A stretch of DNA of 64,000 nt from Marivita geojedonensis (lineage in GTDB: Bacteria; Pseudomonadota; Alphaproteobacteria; Rhodobacterales; Rhodobacteraceae): NCBI RefSeq assembly GCF_002115805.1, contig NZ_JFKC01000008.1, positions 1 through 64,000 of the forward strand. The letters are read 5' to 3'. Positions 18,066 to 27,867 of this stretch are shown here, piece after piece. The translations under genes and the position numbers were made by a program. The stretch's first letter is position 1. Each line of letters begins with the position of its first letter. Below the pieces are notes generated by a model that saw only the letters and a list, made by a program, of their open reading frames with translations, made no database searches and was not told the DNA's origin.

Positions 18066-21000
18066 ATGTCGGCGCGGACAGCCTTTTCTGCGGACAACAG
18101 TATGGTTGCACGACTGACTGCCACCCGCGAGAAGCGGACATACAATCGTTGGGTCGCCAACGAGACGATGGAAGACTTTGCCCTGCGGTTCACCGCACGC
18201 CGGGCGCGACGGTGGAGCTACAGCCGTGTCGCGAATACCGCGATCGGGTCGATCTCGTTTCTGGCCCTCGAAGCGATCGGCGCGACCATCACGATCACCT
18301 ACGGCTTTGACACGGCGATCATCGCAATCATGCTGGTCGGTGCGATCCTGTTTCTGACCGGCCTGCCGATTTCGTATTACGCAGCAAAATATGGGCTCGA
18401 TATTGATCTCATGACCCGAGGCGCGGGTTTCGGGTATCTTGGCTCGACGATCACATCCCTGATCTACGCGTCGTTCACCTTCATCTTCTTTGCTCTGGAA
18501 GCCGCTATCCTGGCTCTCGCTTTGGAATTCACCCTGGGGGTGCCGCTCTTCATCGGCTATGTCGCGAGTTCTCTGGTCGTCATACCTCTGGTCATTCACG
18601 GCTTCTCCAAGATTTCAGCGTTCCAGGCGTGGACCCAACCTCTTTGGGTCCTCCTGCATGTCCTTCCGTTCCTGATACTCGGGTTTGTCGGATATGACAT
18701 TGATACGTGGACCGGGTTCAAAGGCAGCACCGAGGTTCCCGACGGCGCGGAACTCTTGATGCTGGGTGCAGCGTCCGGCGTAGTGTTTTCACTGGTTGCT
18801 CAGATTGGCGAGCAAATCGACTTTCTGAGGTTTCTGCCAGAACCGCGTTCTACGGCAGAAAGGCGCAAATGGTGGCTCGCCTTGATCTGCGCAGGACCGG
18901 GCTGGTCGGTTCTCGGGATGCTCAAGATGCTGGCCGGGTCTTATCTGGTCACGCTCGCCATTCGGGAAAACGTTCCACCGGAAGAAGCAACGGACCCAAC
19001 ACGTCTCTACTATACAGCATTCGAACAGATGCTTTCTTCGCCATTTCTGGTCTTGGCGTTGACGGCCGCTTTCGTCGTGTTGTCCCAACTCAAAATCAAT
19101 GTCACCAACGCTTATGCCGGCTCGATTGCGTGGTCGAATTTCTTTTCCCGGCTGACCAAGAGCCACCCGGGTCGCGTGGTCTGGCTGGTGTTCAATGTTG
19201 CCATCGCCGTGATGCTGATGGAATTGGGCGTCTTCACCGGTCTGGAGCACGTCCTGAGCCTGTATTCGCACGTTGCCGTCGCGTGGATCGGCGCGCTTGT
19301 GGCTGATCTTGTGGTGAACAAGCCATTGGGTCTCAGTCCTAAGGGAATAGAATTCCGGCGGTCTCATCTGTACGACGTAAATCCGGTCGGGATTGGCGCG
19401 ATGCTTATCGCCTGTCTCGTGTCGCTTCTTGCCTTTGCTGGAGTGCTCGGGACGATAGCACAGGCCTTTTCGTCGTTTGTCGCGCTGCTCACTGCTTTCA
19501 TCCTGGCACCGATATTGGCTTGGGCGACCAATGGCAGGTACTACCTGGCACGCGTCGATCCAGAGCCGACTGCGGCGGCGTCCATGCACACCTGTACTGT
19601 TTGCGAGTACCGGTTCGACGCCGAGGACATGAGCGATTGCCCATTCCATTTCGGGCGTATCTGTTCCCTGTGTTGCAGCCTCGATACGGCGTGTCACGAC
19701 CTTTGCAAGCCTCATGGAAGGCTCGATGCATCGCTGCGCGAAGCGTTCCTTGCGGCGCTTCCCGCGCCGATTGCACATGCCATGGTCTCGCGACTGTCAC
19801 GCTACATTCTGACAACGGCGTTCTTGTCGCTTTGCTTTGGTGCCTTGCTGTTGGTGATCCGCGCCTTCGCAAACGAAGACACATTGGACGCCGTTCTCAC
19901 GATCATTTTCTGTACCGTCCTGATCGTCATCGGCATTGCCGTCTGGATGTTTGTGCTGGTCGGTGAAAGCCAGAAAAATGCGTTGGAGGAAACAGAGCGC
20001 CAGACTCAGTTGCTCCTCAAGGAAATCAGAGCACACGAACGCACGGACCTTGCCTTGCAGGAGGCAAAGGAAAAAGCCGAAGCGGCCAACCTTGCCAAGA
20101 CACGGTATATGTCAGGGCTCAGCCATGAGCTGCGCACGCCTTTGAATGCGATATACGGTTTTGCTCAGTTGCTTGAAAAAGATCCCGACCTGGCCCCTTG
20201 GCGGGTCTCGATCACAAGTATCCGACGGTCTTCTGAGCATCTCGCGGGACTGATCAACGGTTTGCTCGATATCTCTCGGATTGAGGCCGGCAGGCTCGAG
20301 ATCGCGCGCGACAAGGTCAATCTGCACGCACTGCTCCGCCAGACCGCTTCGATTTTCGAAGCCGAGGCCAAGGACAAAGGCATCACTTTCAAGTGGTCGA
20401 CCCACGGGCGCATCCCGGCGCTGGTCGGCACAGATGAAAAGCGTTTGCGCCAAGTTATCATCAACCTGCTGTCGAACGCATTGCGCTATACGGATGAAGG
20501 GCGTGTCGAACTTGACCTGAGTTACCGCAACGAAGTTGCCGTCATCACCGTAAAGGATACCGGCATCGGTATCGCACCAGAAAACCTCACGCGCATCTGG
20601 CGTCCTTTCGAGCGTGCTGGCCGGTCTGACCGGCAAGGCTCCGGTCTTGGTTTGACGATTACGAAATTGTTGGTCGAGATCATGGGAGGCGAAATCGACC
20701 TCAAGAGCACACCCGGCTTGGGCAGCACCTTCTCTGTGAAGATGATGCTCCCGGCGATTTCGACGAGCATATTTGACGCTCAGGATTTGAACAAATCAGC
20801 CCATCAACCGACATTTGTTGGTTACAGGGGGGCACGCAAGACGATCCTCGTCGTCGATGACGACGTCAATCACCTGACACTCACCGAACGATTTCTTTCG
20901 AATCTGGGTTTCGTCGTTCTGGTCGCTTGCTCGGTAGATCTGGCCGAGGAGTTGCTGAGCGAAGCCATGCCCGATCTGATGGTGTTGGACATTGACATGC

Positions 21001-21446
21001 CCGAGCGGGATGGCTGGTCGTTTGCACAGGAGTTGCGTTCCGGAGACTGGCCGAACGTACCGATCATTGTCATTTCAGGCCATGCTGACGAGGAGGGTGT
21101 TCCAGGTTCACGGGTGGCGCTGCACGATGCGTTTCTCGCGAAACCGTTCAACCTCGACGAACTCCTGATGCAGATCGCAGAGTTGTTGAAGGTGACTCTC
21201 ATTCTGAGTTCGGAAGACGAGGCCGAACAAGCGGTCGTTGATGATTTGACGGACCACGATCTCGACGCGCTGTGCGAAAGCGCGGAGCTCGGCCATGCGG
21301 CTGGCGTGCGCACGCTCCTCGAGGAACTGCGCTCTGCAAAAAGGGGGGCGCCCAGCCTTCTCGACCTGCTCGAGAAGCGACTGGACCGTTTTGACATGGG
21401 AGGAATCGTCGAAGCCTTGGAGGCAACAAAAAATGGCGTTGAATGA
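18066..21446 (+). CDS. Hybrid sensor histidine kinase with NCS1-permease-like sensor domain and receiver
   Basis: The protein has 1,126 residues. Residues about 35-500 form ~12 membrane segments resembling purine/cytosine permeases (NCS1/CodB type). Next come a cysteine-rich patch (about 507-553, with CTVC, CSLCC and DLC) and two more membrane segments (about 575-630). A coiled linker leads to a HisKA domain with phospho-accepting His687 (HELRTP), an HATPase_c domain (NLLSNALRYTDEG, DTGIGI, GSGLGL), and a receiver with Asp975 (LDIDMP) and conserved Lys (AKPF). No clear ribosome site precedes the ATG, and an ATG at 18102 is an alternative. It diverges from urtA and overlaps the response-regulator gene, so it probably senses amide, urea or a related compound. 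Confidence 0.85.
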   Translation: MSARTAFSADNSMVARLTATREKRTYNRWVANETMEDFALRFTARRARRWSYSRVANTAIGSISFLALEAIGATITITYGFDTAIIAIMLVGAILFLTGLPISYYAAKYGLDIDLMTRGAGFGYLGSTITSLIYASFTFIFFALEAAILALALEFTLGVPLFIGYVASSLVVIPLVIHGFSKISAFQAWTQPLWVLLHVLPFLILGFVGYDIDTWTGFKGSTEVPDGAELLMLGAASGVVFSLVAQIGEQIDFLRFLPEPRSTAERRKWWLALICAGPGWSVLGMLKMLAGSYLVTLAIRENVPPEEATDPTRLYYTAFEQMLSSPFLVLALTAAFVVLSQLKINVTNAYAGSIAWSNFFSRLTKSHPGRVVWLVFNVAIAVMLMELGVFTGLEHVLSLYSHVAVAWIGALVADLVVNKPLGLSPKGIEFRRSHLYDVNPVGIGAMLIACLVSLLAFAGVLGTIAQAFSSFVALLTAFILAPILAWATNGRYYLARVDPEPTAAASMHTCTVCEYRFDAEDMSDCPFHFGRICSLCCSLDTACHDLCKPHGRLDASLREAFLAALPAPIAHAMVSRLSRYILTTAFLSLCFGALLLVIRAFANEDTLDAVLTIIFCTVLIVIGIAVWMFVLVGESQKNALEETERQTQLLLKEIRAHERTDLALQEAKEKAEAANLAKTRYMSGLSHELRTPLNAIYGFAQLLEKDPDLAPWRVSITSIRRSSEHLAGLINGLLDISRIEAGRLEIARDKVNLHALLRQTASIFEAEAKDKGITFKWSTHGRIPALVGTDEKRLRQVIINLLSNALRYTDEGRVELDLSYRNEVAVITVKDTGIGIAPENLTRIWRPFERAGRSDRQGSGLGLTITKLLVEIMGGEIDLKSTPGLGSTFSVKMMLPAISTSIFDAQDLNKSAHQPTFVGYRGARKTILVVDDDVNHLTLTERFLSNLGFVVLVACSVDLAEELLSEAMPDLMVLDIDMPERDGWSFAQELRSGDWPNVPIIVISGHADEEGVPGSRVALHDAFLAKPFNLDELLMQIAELLKVTLILSSEDEAEQAVVDDLTDHDLDALCESAELGHAAGVRTLLEELRSAKRGAPSLLDLLEKRLDRFDMGGIVEALEATKNGVE

Positions 21447-22326
21447 TTTTGGCCCGAAATGCATCGCTTTGGTGGTGGATGATACGCCCGACACACTGGG
21501 AATGGTTTCGAGTGCGCTTGAGGACAGCGGCATCACAGTGCTTGTCGCCACCAACGGGCCATCCGCAATAGAACTGACGCGCAAGGTCGAACCGGATGTG
21601 ATCCTCATGGACGCGGTCATGCCTGGCATGTCAGGGTTTGAAACCTGCCGTGAGCTCAAATTCGGGAGCGAGCCGGTAACAACACCGATTGTCTTTATGA
21701 CAGGACTGACTGAAAAAGAGCACCTTCTGGAAGGTCTTGCTTCAGGCGGTGTCGACTACATCACGAAACCGGTGATTGTCGAAGAACTCCTTGCCCGGCT
21801 CAGCACGCATATCGTCAATTCTCGACTGCTTCAAAGTGCCCGCGATGCGCTGGATACATCCGGTCGATCCGTGCTGGCGTGCGACAGAAATGGCAAGGTT
21901 TTATGGGGATCCCAGAACGCGCTGGCTGTCCTTCGCGAGTCAGATGCTGTGTTTGACTCATCCTGGACCGCATGGGTTGCAAACTGCGCGAACCGGCCTG
22001 TCTCATCGGTTCAACCCTTCGAGACGCGTGAACTGACGTTTCAGTTTGTTGGAATGACGGCGGCTGCAGAAATCCTGATCAAGCCGATGCGCAGCATGAC
22101 AGACAGCAAAGACAGTGTCCTCGCAAGCGCATTCCATCTCACACCGCGGGAAGCTGAAGTGCTGTATTGGTTGACCCTTGGAAAAACCAATCGCGACATC
22201 AGCATCATTCTCGGTCTGAGCGCGCGCACGGTGAACAAGCACCTTGAACAGGTATTTCAGAAGATGGGCATCGACAACCGCACATCAGCAGCGGTGAAAG
22301 CCGACCGGGTTCTGAACGCACTATAG
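21433..22326 (+). CDS. LuxR-family response regulator partnered with the permease-like kinase
   Basis: The protein has 297 residues. The N-terminal receiver (CIALVVDDTPD, phospho-acceptor in LMDAVMPGMSG, KP near residue 110) is followed by a middle PAS-like region (about 150-220) and a C-terminal LuxR helix-turn-helix (LTPREAEVLYWLTLGKTNRDI). GGAGG lies nine bases before the ATG, and the gene overlaps the kinase by 14 bases. It is the likely output of the kinase and candidate activator of urtABCDE-fmdAB through the nearby palindrome. Confidence 0.88.
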   Translation: MALNDFGPKCIALVVDDTPDTLGMVSSALEDSGITVLVATNGPSAIELTRKVEPDVILMDAVMPGMSGFETCRELKFGSEPVTTPIVFMTGLTEKEHLLEGLASGGVDYITKPVIVEELLARLSTHIVNSRLLQSARDALDTSGRSVLACDRNGKVLWGSQNALAVLRESDAVFDSSWTAWVANCANRPVSSVQPFETRELTFQFVGMTAAAEILIKPMRSMTDSKDSVLASAFHLTPREAEVLYWLTLGKTNRDISIILGLSARTVNKHLEQVFQKMGIDNRTSAAVKADRVLNAL

Positions 22327-22495: not shown

Positions 22496-22738
22496 TCAAG
22501 CAGATCGCGCGAGATACGCGGCCGCACGAGCCGGAGTAGATATTTCCGTGTAGTCTTTCTCGGGAATGTCGATTCCCAGCCGCTGATGAAGAGCCGTCAC
22601 GAGGTTCAGAACGTCCATGGAATCCAGTTCAAGATCGTCCTGAATATGATCGTCGGGACCGACATCGTCCGCGTCAATATCAGGTGCTACTCGTACCAAC
22701 TCCTCGAGGAAGATTGCCTGGTAGTCAGTTTCAGTCAT
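22496..22738 (-). CDS. Acyl carrier protein
   Basis: This 80-residue acidic carrier protein has the phosphopantetheine attachment motif LELDSMDVLNLV, with Ser as the expected 4'-phosphopantetheine site. The ATG overlaps the E2 stop as ATGA, so it is translated together with the dehydrogenase genes. It is not the housekeeping fatty-acid ACP by context: there are no fab genes nearby. Its partner is presumably an acyl group made by the E1/E2 or ligase of the same operon. The next gene converges from the other strand after 169 bases, where I see no clear terminator. Confidence 0.88.
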   Translation of the reverse strand: MTETDYQAIFLEELVRVAPDIDADDVGPDDHIQDDLELDSMDVLNLVTALHQRLGIDIPEKDYTEISTPARAAAYLARSA

Positions 22739-23919
22739 AGCTCCTCCGGTGATTGTACCAACTTTTCAAATGCGCTGATGAAACGCGCGACCTGTCGACC
22801 ATCGCTTACTCGGTGATCTGCCGACACCGTGAGAGTCACGACGTGCCTTGGGACAATTTCGCCATCAACAACCCATGGCCTGAGATGCGGAGCACCAAGG
22901 CCCACCAGCGCGACCTGGGGCGGGAATATAACGCCGGTCATCTCCTCGGCTCCGGTCTCGCCCAGACTTGAGACGGTAATCGTACCTTTTGTCATCTCGG
23001 AGCTGCGAAGCCGCCCGGCCCGGGCTCTGGCCACGAGGTCGCGCATGCCCTCCATGGTTTCCTCAAGTGTCATGGACATGGCATCCATCAATGCAGGCGC
23101 CACCAATCCGCCCCCGCGAAGCGCAACAGCAACTCCGGGATTGATAACCTCGGAGGGCTGGAAGCCATCGGGTTCGTTGAAATGTCCGTTCATCACGGGC
23201 ACCTTGCCAGCAGCAAGCGTCGTTGCGCGCACGAACAGCGCGCCCAAGAGAATACGTTTGTCAGGCGAGAGGGAGGCGTTCCGCTCCTCGAGAAACCGAA
23301 TTGCAGGATCGACGTCTATCGTCTCGGACAGATAAAAATGGGGAATTGTCTGCTTGGCCCGCGTCATTGCCGCGGCGATTGCCTTTCGCATTTCGCCAAG
23401 CCGGGTTCCGTCCGATGTGGGCGTGGGAGTCGATCGCGGCACAGCCGCACTCAATCCGTCCACGTCACCAAGGACAACAACCCCACCAGGGCCGGTGCCG
23501 CGAATATCTCGGAGATCAAGTCCCAGCTCATGAGCGCGAACACGTGCGGCCGGAGACGCCATGACTGCGGTTCCAGTGGCCGGAGCTGACCTCGGGATCG
23601 GATCCGGCACCGGCTGCGGCGTCGAGACAGGACGCGCAGGTGGTATCGCCTCCGCTTCTATTGGATCTCGCCGCATATCTTCGCCGGGTTTGAGGATCAC
23701 TGCTAACGGTGCACCGACCGGCAACTCACGACCGAGTTCAGCAGTCAGTTCGGTCACGGTGCCTTCATCGAAAGTCTCGATCTCTATCGCCCCTTTCTGC
23801 GTCTCGACAACCGCGACGATGTCACCGCGCTTTACGGTATCGCCGGGCTTGACCGTCCATTCGACAAGCTTTCCTGCCTCCATGTCGGCGCCCAAGGATG
23901 GCATCGTGAAAATGCCCAT
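22735..23919 (-). CDS. 2-oxoacid dehydrogenase E2 (dihydrolipoyl acyltransferase)
   Basis: The protein has 394 residues: an N-terminal lipoyl domain with the target lysine in VETQKGAIEIE (about residue 43), a proline-rich linker, a peripheral subunit-binding domain (ASPAARVRAHELGLDL, GTGPGG) and a C-terminal catalytic domain ending in SADHRVSDGRQVARFI with the catalytic His and Asp. It transfers an acyl group from E1 to CoA, or possibly here to the adjacent ACP. The ATG at 23919 has a G-rich site before it and lies one base after the E1 stop. No E3 gene accompanies it. Confidence 0.9.
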   Translation of the reverse strand: MGIFTMPSLGADMEAGKLVEWTVKPGDTVKRGDIVAVVETQKGAIEIETFDEGTVTELTAELGRELPVGAPLAVILKPGEDMRRDPIEAEAIPPARPVSTPQPVPDPIPRSAPATGTAVMASPAARVRAHELGLDLRDIRGTGPGGVVVLGDVDGLSAAVPRSTPTPTSDGTRLGEMRKAIAAAMTRAKQTIPHFYLSETIDVDPAIRFLEERNASLSPDKRILLGALFVRATTLAAGKVPVMNGHFNEPDGFQPSEVINPGVAVALRGGGLVAPALMDAMSMTLEETMEGMRDLVARARAGRLRSSEMTKGTITVSSLGETGAEEMTGVIFPPQVALVGLGAPHLRPWVVDGEIVPRHVVTLTVSADHRVSDGRQVARFISAFEKLVQSPEEL

Positions 23920-23920
23920 C

Positions 23921-25915
23921 TCAGACCCCCATTTGAGCTTTGACGGTCGCAACAATCGACGCAACCTGAGGGATCGATGCATCCTCAAGATGCTTCGGAT
24001 ACGGAATGGGGACTTCCCGTGCGCAGACTCTTTCTACAGGTGCATCGAGCGACCATAGGCATTGCTCCATGATCCGCGCCGAGATTTCAGCCGAAAGAGA
24101 CCCGCTGCGCCAACCTTCGTCAATAATCACTGCGCGCCGCGTCTTGGCGACTGACGCCATGATCGTCGCGTCATCGAGAGGGCGCAGCGTTCTCAAGTCG
24201 ATGACTTCAGCGTTTATTCCCGAGGACGCCAGAACATCGGCGGCTTCAAGCGTCTTGAAGAGGGATCCACCGTAGGTGATCAAACTGACGTCACTTCCTT
24301 CGCGACGCACAATTGCACGTGAAATATCCACGGCTCCAGCAGCCGTATCGATTGATCCCGTGCGATTGTAGAGCATGACGTTTTCGAAGATCAGCACCGG
24401 GTCGGGATCCTCGATTGCTGTCCAAAGCATGCCACGCGCATCCTCGATTGTGGCTGGCGCGAGCACCTTCAAACCGGGGATATGCGCATACCAACCTTCC
24501 AGACTGTGCGAGTGCTGAGCGGCCAACTGTTTGCCGGCACCGGTGGCCATCCGAATGACCAAGGGAACACTGAACTGTCCGCCCGACATATGCCGGATCG
24601 TTGCCGCGGTGTTCATGATCTGATCAAGAGCCAACAAAGAGAAGTTCACGGTCATCAGCTCGACGATAGGGCGAAGCCCGGCGGCAGCCGCTCCAATGCC
24701 TGCCCCGGTGAAACCGGATTCCGACAGAGGTGTGTCCCGGATGCGGTTCTCTCCGAACTCCTCCATCAAGCCTTTGGTCACGGCATAGCATCCACCGTAG
24801 GCCCCCACGTCTTCGCCCATCAGAAACACGCGATCATCCTGGGCCATCGCCTCACGAATGGCTTGCTTGACCGCTTCCCGATATGTCATCTCGACCGTTT
24901 GCCCCGACGGTTCTTTCGGCACAATTTCGGGCGCCTGCGGCCCAAGCACATGTTCCTCGAGGTCTTCGACTGGTTCCCAAGTACCGGCTTCAGCGAAAGC
25001 GACCGCCTCTGCTATCTCAGCATCGATCCGGGCGTCAATGTCAGAGACATCGTTTTCGTGGATCAGGTCATTTTCAAGCAGCCAGGTTTGGAACCTGACG
25101 ATGGGCCCTTTTTCGCGCCACAACTCGATCTCGGACTTTTCCCGATAAAGCTGCGCATCGAACATTGAATGTGCCCGGAACCGGTAGGTGGTGCATTCAA
25201 GAAAGTAGGGGCGCCCGGTGTCCCGAATGGTGGCCAAGGCCCTGCGGGTTGCGGCTTCTACCGCGACGACATCCATGCCATCCACCGTTTCCGAGACGAT
25301 GTTATAGGAGGCGGCCTTGGCGCGAATATCGGTCTGGGATTCATAGCGCGCCAACGCGGTACCCATCGCGTACCCGTTGTTTTCGCAGACGAACAGAACC
25401 GGCAAGTCCCACAGTTCCGCAAGGTTGAGGGTTTCGTGAAATTCGCCCTCTGCAACAGCGCCGTCACCGAAGAAGCACACCGTCACCCTATCGTCCCCGG
25501 TCATCTTGTCCGCAAGCGCAAGCCCTCCCGCAAGCGGAAGACCACCCCCGACAATAGCATTGCCGCCGAAAAACTCGGTCTTGGCATCGAAAAGGTGCAT
25601 CGAACCACCGCGCCCCCCCGAACAGCCTTCAGCCTTTCCGTACATTTCCGCCATGACACTCGACATCGAAACGCCGCGCACCAGGGCATGGCCATGTTCT
25701 CGATATGTAGCGACAATTCGATCTGTATCGCGCAGAACGGGAATGACACCCGCCGCGATTGCTTCTTCGCCGTCATAGAGATGCAGGAACCCTCGGATCT
25801 TCTGCTGAGTATACAATTCAGCACATTTGTCCTCGAATTTGCGGATCCGGATCATGTGGGCCAGCAGTTCCAGAACGTGAGCCCGATTGAGATGCGGTTT
25901 TTCGATAACGGTCAT
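23921..25915 (-). CDS. Fused E1 alpha-beta thiamine-diphosphate 2-oxoacid dehydrogenase
   Basis: The protein has 664 residues. The N-terminal half is an E1-alpha domain with the ThDP motif [17 protein letters not shown]...ENN. After a linker near residue 335, the C-terminal half is an E1-beta domain ([45 protein letters not shown]). It decarboxylates a 2-oxoacid (pyruvate, acetoin-like or branched chain; not decidable by eye) and acylates the E2 lipoyl group. In most bacteria alpha and beta are separate genes, so the fusion is notable. The ATG overlaps the ligase stop as ATGA. Confidence 0.9.
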
Positions 25916-27660
25916 GTCTCATCAGTCTCCAGTGTGGAAATGTCGCCTTCGGGAAGCCCTAACTCGCGCGCCTTCAGAAGCCGCCGCATGATTTTTCCGG
26001 ATCGCGTTTTCGGCAGTGTCTTGCGGAAGACGATCTCACGTGGCGCAACTGCCGGCCCAAGTTTCTTGCGCGCATGTCCTCGGATGGATTGCTCGAGGTC
26101 ATCATCCGGCTGAAAGCCCGGATTAAGCGTGACATAGGCTTTGACCAGTTCCCCGGCGGTTTCGTCGGGAACTCCGATGACACCTGCTTCAGCCACCGCT
26201 TCGTGTTCGATCAACGCGCTTTCGACTTCGAATGGCCCGATCAGATGCCCGGACGTTTTGATGAGATCATCAGCACGTCCTACGAACCAGAAATACCCAT
26301 CTTTGTCTCGCATCGCGAGATCGCCGGAGAGATACCAACCATCCCTGAAACACTTCTGATATCTGGCCTCTTCATTCAGATAGGCCCGCATCATGGAAGG
26401 CCATCCAGGCCGCAACGCGAGTTCCCCAATCTCACCATCGCCAAGTTCGACCATACCATCATTGGCTTGCGTGACGATGGCCGCTTCGATCCCCGGCAAG
26501 GGTCGCCCCATTGATCCGGGGCGCACCTCGGCTCCGGGACAATTGGCAATCATGATTCCGCCGGTCTCTGTCTGCCACCAATTGTCGTGGAATGGCTGTC
26601 CAAAGACTTCCTTACTCCAGATGACAGCCTCTGGGTTGAGAGGTTCTCCAACGCTGGCAAGGAAAACCAAGGACGAGAAATCATACTTCGCGGCAGTTGC
26701 ATTTCCCGCACGCATCATCATCCGAATGGCTGTAGGCGCTGAGTACCAGACCTCGACACGCTCTTTCTCAATCGTGCCGTACCATCGGTCGATGTCGAAC
26801 TCTGCCTCGTCGACCAGCATCGTCACACGGTTCACCAATGGTGATATGATTCCGTAGGTCGTGCCGGTAACCCAACCCGGATCAGCGGTGCACCAATAGA
26901 TCGTGCCCGGCGACAGGCGAAGTGCATAGTTGCCCGAGAACGCGTGGTAGATGACGGCGTTATGGACATGAACCGCACCCTTGGGCTTCCCGGTCGTGCC
27001 GGACGTGAAATGGATCAGTGCGGGATCCTCTGGCGCGGTCCTGACCGTTTCAAACGCAGTCGCAGCGGACGCCATTGATGGCCCAAGAGCGATGCAGTCT
27101 TCGGGCGCATCATCTCCTACGATCAGGACGAGTTTCAAAGTCGGAATTTCATCCCGCCACTTGGAAATCTTACGTTTGTAGATCGAAGCGGTGGTAACGA
27201 GAACGTTTGCCTTGCCGATTTCCATCCGAGTGCGGATGGGCTCCGGTCCGAACGCCGAGAACAACGGTGTAAAGATCAACCCCGCCTTAAGAGCGCCAAG
27301 TGCAGCAGCGTAAAGCTCGGGCACACGGCCCATAAGAGCGAAGACACTGTCGCCTTTTCTTAGCCCGTGATCGACAAGGACATTGGCAAATCGCGATGCC
27401 AACTCCGTCAGATCGGTATAGGTCAGGTCCTGCGTGCTTCCGTCCTTGCCAAGCCATTTGATCGCGATCTGCGCTCCGTGGCCATCGGCGACATGACGGT
27501 CTAGCGCTTCATGCGCGATGTTGATGCCGCCCTTCCATCCATCGATCAGACTTCGCGCATGGCCCCATGGGTCATCACCTTCAGTCAATGTATTAGGTAA
27601 ACCACTGGCGTCGGAAACTGCACCGACACCAGACGCGAGTGAAACGCGATCCTGGGTCAT
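25912..27660 (-). CDS. AMP-forming acetyl-CoA synthetase-like ligase
   Basis: This 582-residue adenylate-forming enzyme has the P-loop [15 protein letters not shown], the WWQTETGG motif and the C-terminal [13 protein letters not shown] with the catalytic lysine. The first Trp of WWQTETGG is the residue that restricts the acyl pocket to acetate in acetyl-CoA synthetases. It resembles AcsA-type acetate-CoA ligases. GGAGGAGAG stands before the ATG. It is first in a coupled operon with E1, E2 and ACP, so it may feed or scavenge the same short acyl unit. Confidence 0.88.
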
Positions 27661-27867
27661 TAGACTCTCCTCCCAAGCGCAGTTTGCGTGCAGGCTGAGG
27701 ACTTGGAAATGACTCAGGTCAAATCGGAATTCTGGAAATGCCGGGTGTCATCGAGCTGGAAATCCTTTCATGTCAACCCCGCGGAAGGGAACAATCCAAA
27801 GCGATCCAACACCAGGCCGGGGGACAGAAACGGCATCTACTTTCTTGTTGAGCGAAGGTTCCGCGCT

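Follow-up and report, generated by a model that had tools for sequence, protein, structure and literature searches.

The window considered here is the whole stretch of 64,000 nucleotides at positions 1 to 64,000 of contig NZ_JFKC01000008.1 of Marivita geojedonensis, a member of the Rhodobacteraceae. It carries a four-gene cassette, which combines an AMP-forming ligase of the acetate–coenzyme A (CoA) ligase kind (ACS) with the E1 and E2 components of a 2-oxoacid dehydrogenase and with an acyl carrier protein (ACP) of its own. This dehydrogenase–ligase–carrier set is kept across Proteobacteria and Actinomycetota, often near genes for survival at low oxygen. We tentatively propose, at a little under an even chance, that the set is a low-oxygen acetyl module whose core would be ACS with its private ACP and whose usual second arm would be E1–E2. 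The enzymes are of known kinds, and the new part is their pairing with a private ACP that is able to follow the ligase alone, together with the low-oxygen setting.

Organization of the cassette

All four genes lie on the minus strand. ACS (25912..27660) is an AMP-forming enzyme of 582 aa resembling acetate–CoA ligase. It is followed by E1 (23921..25915), a thiamine diphosphate (ThDP)-dependent dehydrogenase of the pyruvate dehydrogenase (PDH) type with fused alpha and beta halves (664 aa), by E2 (22735..23919), which has one lipoyl domain, an E3-binding domain and an acyltransferase core (394 aa, counted from the ATG at 23919), and by the dedicated ACP (22496..22738; 80 aa) with its phosphopantetheine serine at position 40. 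ATGA overlaps couple ACS to E1 and E2 to ACP, and the gap between E1 and E2 is one base. The initial annotation had described a coupled set of ligase, fused E1, lipoyl E2 and 80-residue ACP, and the placement, the overlaps, the one-base gap and the families all agree with that description. It was also right that the operon has no E3 gene. Three genes of the genome score above the cut-off of the E3 family TIGR01350, all on other contigs, and E3 must therefore be supplied from outside the operon.

Conservation and distribution

The locus survey used one genome per species and covered the best 80 of 594 pattern-matched stretches. Four distant loci with an E1 identity of 37–44% (L098, L099, L101 and L116) were set aside, and no match to the cassette ACP or ACS was found at them. 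All four genes are present at 71 of the 76 orthologous E1 loci. The exceptions are L045, L065 and L108, which run off the contig end, and L085 and L102, which are incomplete, L102 being a fragment. The ACS and E1 genes overlap by four bases at 71 of 75 loci and the E2 and ACP genes at 68 of 71. Because no protein cluster outside the four genes reaches more than 24 loci and the immediate neighbours vary, the four genes are the unit. At L085, a metagenome-assembled genome of Breoghania, ACS and E1 were each matched in two pieces, E2 and ACP are absent, and the contig continues.

A plasmid search with the E1 beta half as query gave 29 records, of which 18 were examined (L147–L154 and L195–L204); nine records from Leisingera and two from Rhodococcus were left out. 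The hosts span alpha-, beta- and gammaproteobacteria and Actinomycetota, and include Sinorhizobium, Ciceribacter, Azospirillum, Methylocystis, roseobacters, Burkholderia, Paraburkholderia, Cupriavidus, Photobacterium, Rhodococcus, Streptomyces and Embleya. An ACP-like open reading frame with a DS motif follows E2 in 18 of the 18 plasmid loci, with a four-base overlap in 16. Since the set is found at both the 71 orthologous and the 18 plasmid loci, it recurs beyond chance. The initial annotation had named a non-conserved ACP neighbour as grounds for refuting its proposal; these grounds do not apply, as ACP recurs regularly in the set and is coupled to it. The fusion of E1 is not essential, because the alpha and beta halves are annotated as separate genes in seven of the 18 plasmid loci.

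The distribution within the family is patchy, with an E1 orthologue (identity of at least 66%) in 20 of 149 genomes. A search with the fused query at an E value of 1e-200 gave matches in 4 of 385 genomes of the class and 5 of 398 genomes in a sample of the phylum, the M. geojedonensis genome itself included. The nearest E1 in the named collection is that of Marivita hallyeonensis, a roseobacter, with 89% identity. On a Rhodococcus opacus plasmid (L251:8001-8138), a cassette-type ACP stretch stands near a universal stress gene with no ACS, E1 or E2 matches, and is probably a remnant.

The ligase as an apparent partner of the acyl carrier protein

An ACP profile built from 61 cassette ACPs and run over the 149 family genomes separates 21 genomes, all with at least 109 bits, from the next match at 48 bits. 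These 21 include each of the 20 genomes that have an E1 orthologue, and the extra one is G125. In 18 genomes, ACP sits immediately downstream of E1 within one contig, and the cassette of G040 is split by contig ends. In G062, which is one of the 20, ACS is directly followed by ACP with a four-base overlap and with no E2 match beside them, and the E1–E2 pair is placed elsewhere in the genome. In G125, ACS is likewise directly followed by ACP, here with a three-base gap and again with no E2 match beside them, and no E1 match was found in this genome at 1e-100. Its three E2 genes score 255–286 bits on the E2 core family; the cassette E2 scores 175 bits in G062 and 200 bits in the window. Because G062 and G125 both keep ACP behind ACS without E2, the more stable partner of ACP appears to be the ligase, as judged from two genomes. 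The two cases may be independent because their ACS proteins have different closest relatives among the cassette ACS proteins, as judged by identities only.

The divergence of ACP over 58 loci gives partial correlations of 0.40 with ACS, 0.46 with E2 and 0.03 with E1. When the proteins are cut into parts, the C-terminal domain of ACS correlates most strongly with ACP divergence (0.33). Such co-divergence of ACP with ACS and E2 is suggestive only, because differing rates of change confound this mirror-tree comparison and the ACS–E1 pair, for which no contact is supposed, gives the highest partial value (0.52).

Each of these two stand-alone ACS–ACP pairs has, about 2–4 kb away, a distinct E1 alpha/beta pair of one and the same kind, beside which no E2 was found (regions L246:2308-4629 on the minus strand and L248:106-2325 on the plus strand). 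The two proteins of this E1 pair are 75% and 81% identical between L246 and L248 and about 33% identical to the cassette E1. Its alpha subunit starts with a twin-arginine-like leader (SRRGFL), and an exported E1 would be odd.

Properties of the acyl carrier protein

The cassette ACP matches PF00550 and carries the motif DSMD, and its phosphopantetheine serine (DS) is kept in 72 of 72 cassette ACPs. The structural model has the normal four-helix ACP fold (mean predicted local distance difference test score, pLDDT, 91), and the M. geojedonensis genome has two phosphopantetheinyl-transferase matches. The protein nevertheless remains below the cut-off of TIGR00517 (43.9 bits against 70.45). Enzymes of fatty acid synthesis dock on an acidic helix II of ACP. 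The net charge of helix II (residues 39–51) averages +0.74 over the 72 ACPs, with a range from −6 to +2, as against −4 in the genome's own AcpP. Because the cassette ACP is without the acidic helix II used for docking, a part in ordinary lipid synthesis is unlikely. The initial annotation had suggested an acyl-ACP starter; a starter for the synthesis of fatty acids or polyketides is made less likely by the charge of helix II and by the lack of a further conserved gene beside the four, and was set aside as the leading interpretation.

Signs of a low-oxygen setting

The best indications of when the set may be used come from the FNR-type box and the neighbouring low-oxygen genes, neither of which the initial annotation had noticed. 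A predicted FNR/FixK-type box, TTGACCTGAGTCAT, lies at 27709..27722 on the minus strand, 62 bases ahead of the ACS start, and agrees with 9 of 10 bases of TTGAYNNNNRTCAA, which we take to be the FNR/FixK consensus. When at least 9 of these 10 bases are required between −250 and +100 of the ACS start, a predicted box is present in 54 of 69 loci, the window included. Controls gave 7.9% of 1380 random windows from the same loci and 18 of 462 starts of long open reading frames (3.9%) in 40 windows from family genomes. Ten of the 13 proteobacterial plasmid loci have the box as well (control, 125 of 1800, 6.9%), several of them at a greater distance upstream (−151 to −326) than that of the window's site; the Methylocystis, Photobacterium and Azospirillum plasmid loci have no box at 9 of 10 bases. 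An FNR-type protein carrying N-terminal cysteines is encoded in the M. geojedonensis genome, and its contig also holds a cbb3 oxidase gene.

Low-oxygen or stress genes, counted as phosphoenolpyruvate (PEP) synthase, phosphofructokinase, universal stress, Hsp20, CBS or similar, lie within 10 kb of the cassette at 24 of 75 loci, as against 0 of 40 control windows. This count used queries from plasmid loci only, with the Leisingera row L087 dropped; with some queries taken from the loci themselves, it rises to 33 of 76 against 0 of 40. The controls are windows at round coordinates in 11 family genomes, and the loci include other orders. In Rhodococcus DK17 and Streptomyces fungicidicus, the set is embedded among genes of the low-oxygen and stress type.

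Family assignment of the enzymes

ACS scores 851 bits against the acetate–CoA ligase family NF003313 (cut-off 729), and the nearest solved chain is 9g79, named 'Acetyl-coenzyme A synthetase'. Among the family sequences, the P-loop is kept in 74 of 74, WWxTETG in 73 of 74 and the A10 lysine pattern in 64 of 74. The conserved tryptophan motif presumably points to acetate as the substrate, and the ligase family together with this motif suggests that ACS acts on acetate. The alpha half of E1 scores 438 bits against TIGR03182 (PDH E1 alpha; cut-off 394) and the beta half 417 bits against NF006667 (an E1 beta subfamily; cut-off 321), and among solved chains human PDH E1 beta and alpha come closest. 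This PDH-type family suggests that E1 acts on pyruvate. In the alignment column of the catalytic glutamate (the VELM stretch), 63 of 63 family sequences have Glu; the ThDP motif is GEG in 60 of the 63 and GDG in three (the window, L038 and L047).

E2 consists of the domains PF00364, PF02817 and PF00198 (lipoyl, E3-binding and catalytic) and carries the motifs ETQKG and DHRVSDG. Across the E2 family sequences, one of which is a fragment, DHRxxDG is present in 69 of 71 and the lipoyl motif ETxKG in 68 of 71, and the AlphaFold2 monomer has a mean pLDDT of 83.9. E2 remains below the PDH E2 cut-off, its best score being 233 bits on TIGR01349 (cut-off 445), and it does not score as the AcoC type, with 71 bits on the acetoin dehydrogenase E2 family NF011457 (cut-off 307).

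A possible mechanism and its alternatives

In the proposed low-oxygen acetyl module, a regulator of the FNR/FixK family would induce the operon as oxygen falls. ACS would exchange acetyl groups, via acetyl-AMP, with the phosphopantetheine thiol of ACP. In most genomes having the ACS–ACP pair, E1–E2 is coupled to it, and pyruvate-derived acetyl groups, carried as acetyl-dihydrolipoyl-E2, would join the same pool, either by direct transfer to ACP or by way of CoA; housekeeping complexes would lend the E3. The flow could go either way, so that acetate and pyruvate would be captured as acetyl-ACP or acetate would be released with the formation of ATP. We infer that acetyl is the acyl group, that ACP is the acyl acceptor or donor of ACS, that acyl groups pass between E2 and ACP and that the operon is regulated in this manner. 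A narrower version, which we judge improbable, is a CoA-sparing energy module for oxygen limitation, in which E1–E2 would oxidize pyruvate and pass the acetyl groups to ACP and the ligase, running in reverse on acetyl-ACP with AMP and pyrophosphate, would yield acetate and ATP. If this version holds, ACP would replace CoA as the shuttle between dehydrogenase and ligase.

Several observations weigh against the proposal of a low-oxygen acetyl module. Most loci place ACP behind E2 and not behind ACS, and the highest partial correlation belongs to the ACS–E1 pair, as described above. ACS scores as a normal acetate–CoA ligase, with no sequence feature shown to favour ACP over CoA, and no conserved consumer of acetyl-ACP was found beside the four genes. 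The FNR-type box is found at 0 of 5 actinobacterial plasmid loci. A DosR-like box, sought at the same five loci with what we take to be its consensus, reaches at best 11–12 of 20 bases, the same as in the control. The two stand-alone ACS–ACP pairs have sites with 8 of 10 bases only.

It is rather unlikely that the cassette encodes ordinary low-oxygen isoenzymes, that is, a second PDH and an acetate–CoA ligase which make acetyl-CoA, with ACP as a regulatory or stabilizing subunit, for example of ACS. That E1 passes the PDH E1 alpha cut-off of NCBIfam and ACS that of acetate–CoA ligase fits such isoenzymes, as do the conserved catalytic motifs, the four further E2 genes of the M. geojedonensis genome and the genes for phosphate acetyltransferase and acetate/propionate kinase that adjoin the cassette in Sulfitobacter SK012. 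However, the serine motif, kept in every cassette ACP, hints at a carrier, even if modified ACPs may also serve a structural purpose. Less probable again is a direct handover from the E2 core to ACP, which would produce acyl-ACP for a special pathway with ACS as an accessory supplier. The frequent four-base overlap of the E2 and ACP genes (68 of 71 loci and 16 of 18 plasmid loci) and the E2–ACP correlation of 0.46 argue for it, whereas ACP stays with ACS in G062 and G125, where E2 is not beside them, and no further conserved gene beside the four would use the acyl-ACP. Moreover, CoA in E. coli E2p enters from inside the hollow core, which has openings about 30–40 Å wide (PMC8421416), so that ACP would also have to enter the core. 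E2-to-ACP transfer, which the initial annotation had put forward, may take place, but it gives an incomplete account since ACP can be kept behind the ligase without E2.

The substrate of E1 might instead be acetoin or another small ketone, which is very unlikely given that E1 alpha exceeds the PDH cut-off, that human PDH provides the nearest solved chains and that E2 falls far short of the acetoin dehydrogenase cut-off, although no search was aimed at acetoin genes themselves. In favour of this view, the cassette E1 shares a broad family with the E1 of acetoin dehydrogenase, and ACS could recapture acetate arising from released acetaldehyde. There is hardly any likelihood that ACP bears octanoyl or lipoyl groups with which the cassette E2 is lipoylated. 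Octanoyl-ACP generally serves lipoyl assembly, and the E2 and ACP genes are coupled, but helix II of the cassette ACP (+0.74 against −4 in AcpP) does not offer the acidic surface on which fatty acid synthesis enzymes dock, and ACP is present in G125 without a cassette-type E2.

If ACP does carry acetyl groups between a ligase and a 2-oxoacid dehydrogenase, an ACP would here have an uncommon function unrelated to the synthesis of lipids and natural products. The fate of pyruvate and acetate in respiring bacteria once oxygen runs out would then also have an explanation that can be tested. The initial annotation knew of no characterised pathway with this set, and no description of the four-gene set appeared among the results of searches of open-licence PMC papers aimed at the set or its setting. 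The main text of a paper on Dinoroseobacter FnrL (PMC5398030) contains none of the terms acetyl-CoA, acetoin, pyruvate, acyl carrier, synthetase or dihydrolipo, and the set is not named in the accessible portions of PMC6302529, PMC6127331 and PMC3862766.

Neighbouring genes in the window

A hybrid histidine kinase of 1126 aa and an overlapping REC-LuxR regulator occupy 18066-22326 on the plus strand; the kinase has a long hydrophobic N-terminal part with no Pfam match. The kinase, the regulator and urtABC stand jointly beside the cassette only in Sneathiella (L061) among the best 80 loci, and other loci of these 80 have single weaker matches to the kinase or the regulator. The hybrid kinase and LuxR regulator, the urea-type ABC transporter, the zinc dehydrogenase and the molybdenum dehydrogenase of the window were considered as module members and rejected.

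Comparison with known systems

The neighbours of the cassette include PEP synthase, phosphofructokinase, universal stress proteins, Hsp20 and a cation ATPase. Such low-oxygen or dormancy-type genes recall the OsdR/DosR regulons and the lxa locus of Burkholderia cenocepacia, the latter reportedly described by Sass et al. 2013. In the parts available, accounts of the OsdR regulon (PMC6302529) and of the lxa locus (PMC6127331) list genes of the same kind as the cassette neighbours, but the cassette itself did not appear in those parts.

The cassette resembles the PDH complex with an alpha2-beta2 type of E1 in its E1 alpha and beta halves, in the lipoyl, E3-binding and core domains of E2 and in the catalytic motifs. 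In contrast to that complex, E1 is fused in the window and in many relatives and no E3 gene adjoins; E1 and E2 are coupled to ACS and the private ACP, an FNR-type box is present, and the cassette is additional to the other E2 systems of the genome. ACS resembles AcsA, the short-type AMP-forming acetate–CoA ligase (NF003313), in a match over nearly the whole length, in the P-loop and in the Trp-rich motif. Unlike AcsA, it is coupled either to E1–E2 and a dedicated ACP or directly to ACP. The cassette ACP shares its fold and phosphopantetheine serine with AcpP, the ACP of type II fatty acid synthesis, whereas it scores under the TIGR00517 cut-off, has lost the acidic helix II and sits with ACS and E2.

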